From Dehalococcoidia bacterium (GTDB lineage Bacteria; Chloroflexota; Dehalococcoidia; DSTF01; JACRBR01): a stretch of DNA of 64,000 bases. The stretch covers positions 1-64,000 of the forward strand of contig JAKFYB010000025.1 in assembly GCA_021731085.1 (NCBI GenBank), in the 5' to 3' direction. Positions 20,566 through 47,424 of this stretch are shown here, piece after piece (the first letter of the stretch is position 1; each line of letters starts with the position of its first letter). The notes under the pieces are model-generated. The model saw only the letters and a program-made list of their open reading frames with translations. It did no database searches and was not told the origin of the DNA. The translations under genes were made by a program, and so were the position numbers.

Positions 20566-20609
20566 CTCCTGGTTCACGCGAAATTAACCGTTGCTTGCTC
20601 GTCCAAATG

Positions 20610-20639
20610 TTGACGGGCTTGTGCGCGTATTGCTATCGT
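20610..20639 (+). promoter_or_regulatory. Strong promoter TTGACG-18-TATCGT with extended -10
   Basis: TTGACG (20610-20615) and TATCGT (20634-20639) are 18 bases apart, and TGC directly before the -10 gives an extended -10. Predicted start near 20646, about 20 bases before a 22-codon ORF. Confidence 0.65.
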
Positions 20640-20665
20640 GTGCAACAGGAAAGGAGGTGATGCGC

Positions 20666-20734
20666 ATGGATTATCGTAGTTGCAGGGCCTGTGGCCCCAA
20701 CAACCGTCGCAACACCTCGGGGGATTCCTGCTAG
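20666..20734 (+). CDS. 22-codon Cys/Arg-rich small protein or leader peptide
   Basis: A short ORF starting MDYRSCRACGPNNRRN and ending GDSC, with three Cys and four Arg in 22 residues. A full consensus SD AGGAGG (20652-20657) lies eight bases before the ATG; an in-frame ATG at 20660 is too close to the SD. It has a near-consensus promoter upstream and an intrinsic terminator about 50 bases downstream, forming a transcript of about 170 bases. Between stop and terminator, GCCAGGC (20734-20740) pairs with GCCTGGC (20767-20773). No gene follows on this strand, so it is not a classical leader for a downstream gene. I do not recognise the peptide; the RNA itself may be the product. Confidence 0.5.
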   Translation: MDYRSCRACGPNNRRNTSGDSC

Positions 20735-20784
20735 CCAGGCTCCCGAGAGCGGCGGCCGGGCTGCAGGCCTGGCAACAGACACGA

Positions 20785-20820
20785 AACAGGGCCGGTCACA
20801 TGACCGGCCCTGTTCATTTT
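20785..20820. terminator. Strong bidirectional intrinsic terminator
   Basis: A perfect 14-bp stem (20785-20798 with 20801-20814) around a very short CA apex is followed by CATTTTC on the plus strand. The minus strand reads TTTCGTGTC after the stem. It therefore ends both the small-ORF transcript and the convergent gltD-type gene. Confidence 0.9.
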
Positions 20821-20835
20821 CAACTGAGTTCGTTG

Positions 20836-22293
20836 TTACTTCGGGCGCTTCTTCGGCGGCAGCGTGGCGATGTATTCGTCGATAGCCAGCGCAGCACGCC
20901 GACCGTCCGCCAGCGCCGTCACCACAAGATCGGCGCCATTTACGTTGTCGCCACCTGCGAACACTCCCGGCCGCGTCGTCATTCCCGTCTCGCGGTCAAC
21001 CTCGACTAGGTTCCAGCGGTTCGTTTGCACGCCCGGCGCTGCGTCATTGATGTTTGGGTCCGCGTTGTAGCCGATCGCGATCGCGACGCTGTCGGCCGGG
21101 ATGATGAACTCTGAATGTGGAATAGGCACCGGAGCGCGCCGCCCGGACTCGTCTGGCTCTCCGAGCGCGCTCTGCTGGCACTCCACGCCGGTCACCTGGC
21201 CCGCCTCATTGCCGATGAACCGCAACGGGATCGTCAGGAACTGGAAGTCCACGCCTTCCTCGCGCGCGTGGTGACGCTCCTCCGTCCTGCCCTGCATCTC
21301 GGCCTCAGTTCGGCGATACACACAACTCACGTTCTGCGCACCAAGCCGCACGGCCGTCCGCACGCAGTCCATCGACGTATCGCCGCCACCGATAACGACG
21401 ACGTCGTTGCCGACATTCAGCCCGTCGCGCATATTCTCGGGAAGTTGTTCGGGGCGCAGATTTCCGCGTACGAGGAACTCCGTGGCGGCATAGATGCCCG
21501 TCAGCGTCTCGCCCGGCACAGAAAGCTTGCCGCCGAGGCTCGCGCCCGTCCCAACGAACACCGCGTCGAATCCCTGCGTGAACAGGTCGTCGATCGTCAC
21601 GTCCTTGCCCACCCACGTGTTGCCGACGAACTTCACACCCAGGTGGTCGAGGTACTTAAGCTTGTCCTGCAGCACGTTCTTGCTGAGCTTGAAGTTCGGG
21701 ATTCCGTACAGCAGCACGCCACCGGGCTCAGGCCACGCATCGAACATCGTGCACGAGTGCCCGCGCTTGCCGAGCTCCTCCGCAACCGCCAGGCCCGCCG
21801 GCCCAGCGCCGATGATCGCGATAGAAAACCCCGTCTGTTCCGGAACGATCGGTAGGGGCACGCCATAGTGCTCGCGCTGATAGTCGGTGACGAACGCTTC
21901 GAGCTTGCCGATCGTAACGGGCGGCTCCTGGTGTGAGTCCGGCCGGATCGCGAACGCGACGACGCACTCGCCCTCGCAAAGACGTTCCTGAGGACAGAGA
22001 CGCCCACACAGTTCAGGCAGGTTGCTGGTTTCCCGAAACACCTCCGCAGCGCCAAACACATCCCCGACCTCGAGGAGCTTGAAGGCGCCCGGGATGTCGT
22101 TGCCCACGGGGCAGGCCTGCTGGCATGGTGCCGTCGGGCACTGTAAACAGCGCATCGCTTCGGTCTGAGCTGCCTCAAGGTCGAACCCGAGGAAGACCTC
22201 GTCCCAGTTTTTGGTGCGCTCAGCGGGAACCTGCTTGTTGATAGGCACCCGAGAAATGGCGAGGCGGCGCTGAATCTCGACGTCTTTTCCCAT
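20836..22293 (-). CDS. GltD-type NAD(P)H-dependent oxidoreductase (copy 1)
   Basis: A 485-residue protein of the glutamate synthase small-subunit family. The N-terminal Fe-S domain has MRCLQCPTAPCQQACPVGND and CGRLCPQERLCEG, ligands for two [4Fe-4S] clusters. An FAD-binding motif AIIGAGPAGLAVAEELGKRG and an NAD(P)H motif VVVIGGGDTSMDCVRTAVR follow. GltD normally passes electrons to GltB, but no gltB is in the window and a paralogue lies at 40292. Stand-alone members serve other electron-transfer partners, so the gene symbol is withheld. SD AAGGA precedes the ATG. The leader contains the palindrome CCTGATTCAGG near 22321, a possible operator. Confidence 0.85.
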   Translation of the reverse strand: MGKDVEIQRRLAISRVPINKQVPAERTKNWDEVFLGFDLEAAQTEAMRCLQCPTAPCQQACPVGNDIPGAFKLLEVGDVFGAAEVFRETSNLPELCGRLCPQERLCEGECVVAFAIRPDSHQEPPVTIGKLEAFVTDYQREHYGVPLPIVPEQTGFSIAIIGAGPAGLAVAEELGKRGHSCTMFDAWPEPGGVLLYGIPNFKLSKNVLQDKLKYLDHLGVKFVGNTWVGKDVTIDDLFTQGFDAVFVGTGASLGGKLSVPGETLTGIYAATEFLVRGNLRPEQLPENMRDGLNVGNDVVVIGGGDTSMDCVRTAVRLGAQNVSCVYRRTEAEMQGRTEERHHAREEGVDFQFLTIPLRFIGNEAGQVTGVECQQSALGEPDESGRRAPVPIPHSEFIIPADSVAIAIGYNADPNINDAAPGVQTNRWNLVEVDRETGMTTRPGVFAGGDNVNGADLVVTALADGRRAALAIDEYIATLPPKKRPK

Positions 22294-36323: not shown

Positions 36324-36985
36324 GCGAGCACCGCCTCGAACTCAGGTGTCTCCATCTGGAAGTGCGAACAGAAAGCCGCGACGATGGCGTCATAGACTGC
36401 ATTCAGCTCAAAACTTCGCCCGCCCGCCACGGCCATCGAGGTCGTCCGTACATCGCTGAGTCCGCACGGCACGATGTGGTCGAACCACGACAAATCCGTG
36501 TCCACATTCAGCGCGAAGCCATGCGTTGTCACGCCACGAGAGACCCGCACCCCGAGCGCCGCGACCTTCGCGCCACCGACCCACACGCCACGGCCCTGTC
36601 TGGATCGCTCTCCAGCCATGCCGAAGCGTTCGAGCACATCAATCAGGACTTGCTCCAGACCGCAAACGTAGTCAGACACGCCGATACCCAGGCGTCGTAA
36701 GTCGACAATCGCGTAGCCCACGATCTGTCCCGGCCCGTGGAACGTCACGTCGCCACCGCGATCGCTGCGCACTACCTCGGCACCCAACTGCACCAGACGT
36801 TGGCTGCTCGCGAGCAAGTGGCGTTCATCACCACGAGCACCAAGCGTGTACGTCGGCGGATGTTCGAGCAGGATGAGTGTCGGTTCGCCGCCAGCGCGGA
36901 CAGCGTCGGCCGTGCGCTGTTGCAATCCGTAGGCCTCGCCGTACGGCACAGTTCCGGGGCAGAGGACGCTCAGGTGGGTTCCCAA
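36320..36985 (-). CDS. lipB: Octanoyl-ACP:protein octanoyltransferase
   Basis: Transfers octanoyl groups from acyl-carrier protein to lipoyl-domain lysines. It has 221 residues from a TTG at 36985, close to the family norm. Motifs present are EHPPTYTLGARG, RGGDVTFHGPGQIVGY, the catalytic Lys in GGAKVAALGVR and the catalytic Cys in HIVPCGL. Longer starts up to 37054 are open, but the -10 box TATCCT at 37021-37026 would place transcription downstream of them. It is the first gene of the lipB-lipA-E3-E1alpha-E1beta-E2 operon. Confidence 0.9.
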   Translation of the reverse strand: MGTHLSVLCPGTVPYGEAYGLQQRTADAVRAGGEPTLILLEHPPTYTLGARGDERHLLASSQRLVQLGAEVVRSDRGGDVTFHGPGQIVGYAIVDLRRLGIGVSDYVCGLEQVLIDVLERFGMAGERSRQGRGVWVGGAKVAALGVRVSRGVTTHGFALNVDTDLSWFDHIVPCGLSDVRTTSMAVAGGRSFELNAVYDAIVAAFCSHFQMETPEFEAVLA

Positions 36986-47157: not shown

Positions 47158-47424
47158 GGTCGTGCTAGGCGGGGAGCCAGCGGTGCCCTGTACCCGCAAG
47201 CCGCTATAGCGGGGCTGAATTCCTGCTCGAGGTTACGGTACCTGGACACGAGCGGCGCCGAGCGGTGTTGAGGGCTTGGTCCTACGCGGCGGAGCGCTGT
47301 GAACCCCGTCAGGTCCGGAAGGAAGCAGCGGTAAGCAGTTAGTTCCGGGTGCCGTAGGGTTACCGAGCCGGAGCTAGTTAGCGTCGCCACGCCTAAGGGC
47401 CTAATCGACAGCAGGTGCACGACC
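47158..47424 (+). ncRNA. ffs: Signal recognition particle RNA, large (Alu-containing) type
   Basis: The SRP54-binding core is plain: GTCAGGTCCGGAAGGAAGCA at 47309-47328, with the GGAA tetraloop at 47317-47320. The 5' Alu-like start reads GTGCTAGGCGGGGAGCCAGC. The ends are set by an eight-base-pair closing helix: GGTCGTGC (47158-47165) pairs perfectly with GCACGACC (47417-47424). The total of about 267 bases fits the long form seen in Gram-positive-type bacteria rather than 4.5S RNA. A T-rich stretch (TATTTCTCTCC) follows. It works with Ffh and with FtsY, whose gene lies at 62841. Confidence 0.93.

Follow-up and report, generated by a model that had tools for sequence, protein, structure and literature searches.

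Positions 20610 to 20822 of the window, the 64,000-nucleotide stretch of a Chloroflexota MAG analyzed here, carry a compact unit made up of a promoter, a 13-nt match to the 16S rRNA tail, a 22-codon ORF, a long-range helix, and a hairpin terminator. The element that this unit represents is real, conserved, and uncatalogued in Rfam, Pfam, and NCBIfam, and it very probably represents a family of RNAs whose mini-ORF is translated. It is present in a single copy in the source genome.

The promoter was located by motif scan on the plus strand (20610 to 20639) and consists of a −35 sequence, TTGACG (20610 to 20615), an 18-nt spacer, and an extended −10 sequence, TATCGT (20634 to 20639), with TG before it. 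It was the sole promoter-like site in the 2.5 kb around the unit, where 0.4 sites were expected. The predicted transcript of ∼177 nt would extend from 20646, placed by its spacing from the −10 sequence, to 20822 on the same strand, as indicated by promoter and terminator, fold, and homologues; its computed folding energy was −95.8 kcal/mol compared with −66.7 kcal/mol in shuffles (z, −6.5). Close to the 5′ end lies GAAAGGAGGTGAT (20649 to 20661), a 13-nt complement of the 16S rRNA 3′ tail from the same genome (locus L155), and within it AGGAGG (20652 to 20657) stands 8 nt 5′ of the ATG at 20666. A pattern search, from which the genome-wide Shine-Dalgarno count was taken, identified three occurrences of AAGGAGGTGAT in the 3.58-Mb genome: in the 16S gene, apparently within a coding region, and in this unit. 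The ORF (20666 to 20734, plus strand; stop codon TAG at 20732 to 20734) encodes MDYRSCRACGPNNRRNTSGDSC, with three Cys and four Arg.

Two helices involve the ORF. In the first, here called the mask, GAGGTG (20654 to 20659) and TGCG (20661 to 20664) form a 5′ strand at 20654 to 20664 that faces CGCA (20708 to 20711) and CACCTC (20713 to 20718), a partner (20708 to 20718) that lies within ORF codons 15 to 18 and covaries in other families. In the second, P1, GTTGC-a-GGGCCTG (20679 to 20691; ORF codons 5 to 9) faces CAGGCCT-g-GCAAC (20764 to 20776), which ends 7 nt 5′ of the terminator; the 12 pairs are 100% paired in f1, the family of the window genome, and all of these strands are read on the plus strand. 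The terminator, a stem-loop with a 14-bp stem (20784 to 20815), is usable on both strands and common to the unit and the convergent gltD; the scan that detected it assigned it to gltD, on the minus strand, and its T-run on the plus strand (20813 to 20821) is weak. An earlier note on this DNA, made from the sequence alone, had correctly placed the promoter, the Shine-Dalgarno sequence, the ORF with its Cys and Arg content, and the terminator, and the Shine-Dalgarno sequence proved better than it had claimed. Its 7-bp pairing after the stop codon (GCCAGGC/GCCTGGC) is present in the window and in a genus-mate, but the remaining f1 members do not conserve its 5′ partner. The conserved partner of the 3′ half is ORF codons 5 to 9.

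Upstream of the unit, on the same strand, are murE (16777), a class-III aminotransferase gene (18384), and a gene for a PAP2-family protein (19756). Downstream, no plus-strand gene was found 3′ of the unit, as the earlier note had stated; the neighbor is instead a convergent gene for a glutamate synthase small-subunit type protein (gltD; 20836 to 22293). The birA gene of this genome is located away from the element (G000:C15:26775). A weak second BPL_LplA_LipB match in the window (36494 to 36796, minus strand; 22.4 bits) presumably represents a lipoate-type ligase and not birA.

Homologues were identified in all seven f1 relatives (E values, 1e−12 to 5e−65), so that the element is carried by eight genomes from five genera of this family. 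A search with the pattern of the 5′ end found it in many families of the class, mostly as one copy per genome, and the matches read in detail had the same anatomy in all but a handful. The pattern hits L089 to L092, L136, L138, L072, L158 to L160, and L164 were set aside, being either the starts of ordinary genes or ORFs unrelated to the element. In total, the element is known from ∼15 Chloroflexota families, two of them outside the class of the window: f83 (six genomes, with the peptide MDVSCKSRAASVRSR in five) and f95 (one genome). Named carriers bear the annotation Dehalococcoidia or Chloroflexi; Tepidiforma flava and other Tepidiforma (class Tepidiformia in the NCBI taxonomy), cultured ones among them, also have the element. 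The distance from the end of the −10-like hexamer to AAGGAGG was 10 to 14 nt in 53 of 54 distinct homologues. Cross-family alignment of the element was unreliable outside the 5′ segment. Sequence comparison shows conservation of promoter position, ribosome binding site, ORF length, helices, and terminator, in keeping with the self-contained transcript proposed earlier; of the peptide and the pairings, whose conservation in relatives had been named beforehand as the check, the pairings are conserved and the peptide sequence is not. One genome (G432) had two element copies on contig C1 (L107 and L108), 1.3 Mb apart, with identical ORF and mask and each with birA and murE; this may reflect either a genuine duplication or an artifact of assembly.

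The earlier note knew of no matching family, and searches of the libraries agreed. Rfam searches of the window and 20 homologous loci at the gathering threshold returned nothing but SRP RNA and RNase P, at sites away from the element, and relaxed thresholds gave only weak chance matches for the element. No match to the element was found in Pfam or NCBIfam or, by distant BLASTN, in phages and plasmids, and no description of it was found in the open-access literature. The window itself harbors a bacterial large SRP RNA at 47160 to 47422 (plus strand; score, 204).

Across families, ORF codons ∼12 to 18 supply the 3′ strand of the mask; opposite them stand the Shine-Dalgarno sequence, the spacer, and, in many cases, the start codon. 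Compared with dinucleotide shuffles it had a mean z of −3.1 (54 distinct sequences from 13 families), and for 53 of the 54 the native spacer outpaired those taken from other families. The spacer and its ORF partner read GCGG/CCGC in f1 and f4, GTGA/TCAC in f126, GCGC/GCGC in f36, and GCCC/GGGC in f83; in two f36 members with the spacer GTGC, a synonymous Ala change from GCG to GCA restores the pairing (GTGC/GCAC). In f83 and f95, which differ again in spacer, the mask reached z values between about −3.6 and −3.9, and the covariation score for f126/f134 was reached by none of 500 shuffles. Families f4, f3, and f25 had weak masks (z, −1.0 to −2.4), and the mask of the window is short of one pair because its spacer reads CGC where other f1 members have CGG. 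By these comparisons, the mask is supported by covariation, with the support coming from families other than f1.

P1 joins ORF codons ∼4 to 11 to the segment that immediately precedes the terminator, and its own strands outpaired foreign strands in 49 of 54 sequences; it was not seen in f26 and was weak in f134. The whole structure is 98.4% paired in f1, with a covariation score of 0.189 compared with 0.069 ± 0.016 when shuffled (reached by 0 of 500). This f1 covariation derives mainly from the terminator, in which 7 of 11 stem pairs changed on both sides, since the mask and P1 hardly vary within f1. For f36, mask and P1 together were modestly above shuffles (30/500 for covariation score and 3/500 for percentage paired), and their percentage paired was far above slid controls. 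P1 is likewise supported by covariation in the sequences compared, again from families other than f1. The mask and P1 cross and must therefore be alternatives or form a pseudoknot. When the terminator arms were paired against the upstream region, no conserved antiterminator was identified, z being near 0 or at shuffle level in most members.

In the class members read outside f1, birA lies directly 3′ of the element on the same strand, with a median gap of 30 nt between terminator and birA start, and the genes upstream vary; murE is often found immediately upstream. The assignment as a biotin protein ligase gene follows from a TIGR00121 match above the cut-off for the L048 example. In f1, birA is found at other places without an element beside it, and no same-strand target gene was found next to the f1 elements, the genes between element and gltD in G004 and G005 appearing to be on the opposite strand. 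The element is likewise, and independently, separate from birA in f83, where the end of a murE-like gene lies ∼1.2 to 1.4 kb upstream in two genomes; at three f83 loci (L172, L175, and L176), the convergent gene that follows looks Fic/Doc-like by eye. Family f2 belongs to the same order as f1. In both f2 genomes examined (L142 in G010 and L143 in G008), birA comes directly after murE, and the element motif was absent from the fetched murE-birA stretch, unlike in neighboring families of the order. Since the window unit stands alone, an action of its own, beyond that of a birA control region, is probable.

Of the 47 linked loci, 20 had a TAnnnT hexamer 12 to 17 nt ahead of the birA start, compared with a single locus for each of two control windows. 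In many cases birA may therefore be served by a nearly leaderless promoter of its own. All eight f126 loci had the hexamer, most f36 members had no promoter in the gap between terminator and birA, and most Tepidiforma-type members had no hexamer. At the f126/f134 loci (L098 to L109), TATCCT-like hexamers were noted 12 to 17 nt before the birA ATG; their position suggests that birA could be transcribed there as a leaderless mRNA from its own promoter. Pairing in trans between the f1 RNA and the 5′ regions of f1 birA genes was also considered and was at chance level (z, −1.0 to +1.3).

Several explanations other than a translated, ribosome-responsive RNA have to be weighed against the behavior of the ORF. 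In representatives of all 13 families, the first in-frame stop fell at codon 15 to 25 or just beyond (product of shuffle P values, 2e−10), length differences in the alignments were whole codons, and the start codon spacing was fixed at 8 nt. A functional Cys/Arg-rich micropeptide binding metal or nucleic acid, one of the two products that the earlier note had envisaged, would suit the strong expression signals, the conserved ORF length, and the likeness of the f1 peptides (C.AC.PS..RSTS), but it is very unlikely: in f1 it is not the third codon position that varies most, in neither f1 nor f126/f134 did the true frame have a higher fraction of synonymous changes than both of the others, and Cys is missing in many other families, for example, the Tepidiforma-type MDHHSRSYDRTFALEVTSS, besides the lack of a Pfam or NCBIfam match. 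A slight excess of synonymous changes was seen in f36. The proposed comparison of synonymous with compensatory change thus gave covarying helices (mask and P1) and no clear excess of synonymous changes. The other product envisaged was a regulatory RNA with a decoy ORF. Of the two possibilities the regulatory RNA is the better one. The conserved start, frame, and length show that the ORF is more than a decoy. For the same reason, a non-coding small RNA, with an incidental, untranslated ORF and a 5′ end that binds the 16S tail or a target, appears unlikely, even though it would accommodate RNA helices that are conserved over a peptide that is not; the fixed start spacing, the narrow distribution of ORF length, and the whole-codon changes all argue for translation. 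That the unit is nothing but a bidirectional terminator beside gltD accompanied by chance signals deserves hardly any credence: the hairpin can serve both strands, but promoter, ribosome binding site, ORF, and helices are conserved where gltD is not adjacent, which refutes this explanation. With the ORF length conserved and the peptide not, the likely function is therefore the act of translation and not its product.

The linkage to birA raises a further explanation, a cis-acting attenuator leader in which translation of the upstream ORF decides readthrough of the terminator into birA, the window copy being a relic of a move of birA. The same-strand birA directly behind the element in class members outside f1, the variable genes upstream, the short gap to birA, and the gap without promoter in most f36 members would fit such a leader. 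Against it stand the f1 orphan, which retains promoter, mask, P1, and terminator over eight genomes and five genera, the second orphan in f83, and the −10-like hexamer of its own before birA in 20 of 47 loci, and no runs of a regulatory codon were found in the codon listings of 64 loci. This explanation is doubtful, if less so than those above, and classical attenuation is unlikely because there is no conserved antiterminator and no codon run and because orphan copies were kept. These observations, with the chance-level pairing to birA in trans, favor an autonomous ribosome-responsive RNA to which the birA linkage adds, or once added, control in cis; as the f1 RNA was retained after birA moved, it must also act without a downstream gene.

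How such an RNA might respond to ribosomes was modeled with partition functions for growing 5′ fragments, calculated without pseudoknots. Median accessibility of the Shine-Dalgarno sequence was 0.58 with codon 8 out, 0.18 with the stop codon out, and 0.50 at full length, and that of the start codon was 0.71, 0.32, and 0.69, respectively. Masking once the stop codon is out was predicted for 43 of 55 sequences; the predicted re-exposure at full length was partial and was clear in 27 of 55, and a pseudoknot containing both helices would keep the site masked. In this model, the ribosome site would be open early in transcription, leaving a window for loading, the mask would form as codons ∼12 to 18 emerge, and the site would be partly re-exposed once the 3′ strand of P1 and the segment after the stop codon appear. 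A ribosome that loads early would block the mask and open P1, so that ribosome occupancy could set the fold of the RNA and translation itself would be the function. Where birA is directly 3′, translation of the ORF could tune readthrough into it; the f1 form without birA would most simply be a trans-acting, ribosome-responsive RNA. The promoter, ribosome site, ORF, helices, and terminator are drawn from comparison, the timing is a prediction, and the consequence is what we infer. That the element is an autonomous small RNA gene around a translated mini-ORF, with this mechanism complete, is an evenly balanced proposition. Tentatively, it can be extended to an autonomous regulator with ribosome loading as its input, in which translation would refold the RNA and expose a 3′ half that acts in trans, the birA leaders being one arrangement and f1 the freed form. 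It is similarly speculative that, as part of that extension, the strongest Shine-Dalgarno sequence of the genome would belong to the very ORF by which it is masked.

The element resembles two known systems in part and has the defining features of neither. The LEU element, found upstream of leuA in Actinobacteria, has a short leader ORF whose codons pair with a Shine-Dalgarno sequence, forms a pseudoknot or an alternative hairpin, and has no unpaired ligand pocket, and its authors doubt classical attenuation (PMC1262725). All of these structural traits recur here. However, the Shine-Dalgarno sequence masked in the LEU element is that of leuA and its leader has a leucine run, whereas here the ORF masks its own site, the terminator is 3′ of the ORF, the unit exists without a downstream gene, and leuA was not seen nearby. 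In the type I toxin mRNA aapA3, an anti-Shine-Dalgarno sequence within the ORF masks the site on the nascent RNA, and synonymous changes matter (PMC6733600). The element is likewise a stand-alone short-ORF transcript with such a sequence inside the ORF, its masking being predicted. A type I toxin is a small, hydrophobic, toxic peptide with a cis-encoded antisense RNA and an inert full-length mRNA; here the peptides are hydrophilic by inspection and not conserved, only the convergent gltD and the shared terminator are evident, and folding predicts a full-length RNA that is partly open.

Amino acid attenuator leaders of the trp, his, and leu type share with the element a promoter, a short ORF, long-range helices, and a terminator before a metabolic gene. 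They differ in the regulatory codon run and antiterminator that are not found here and in the conservation of orphan copies, and the structural gene directly 3′ is absent in the window, f1, and f83 and is birA elsewhere in the class. Dual-function small RNAs of the SgrS type also encode a small protein. They are similarly compact, terminated RNAs with a short ORF, but here the peptide is not conserved and no target pairing was identified. Riboswitches have a strongly conserved unpaired ligand pocket, whereas cross-family conservation of the element is confined to the 5′ ribosome binding segment and the pairing partners.

The element adds to Chloroflexota a covariation-supported RNA family absent from the libraries searched, and it may bear on the expression of birA in this phylum. 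A self-masking ORF that is retained after loss of the downstream gene separates the act of translation from the role of a gene leader, and the two natural orphan lineages, f1 and f83, make the question of action in cis or in trans directly testable.

A further feature of the ORF was noted in many families (for example, at L048, L107, and L043). A second Shine-Dalgarno-like sequence, GGAGGT (encoding Glu-Val), is present ∼10 nt before the ORF stop at a near-constant distance and is often followed by its own complement. A termination pause or competition for the anti-Shine-Dalgarno sequence are possible roles for this second motif.
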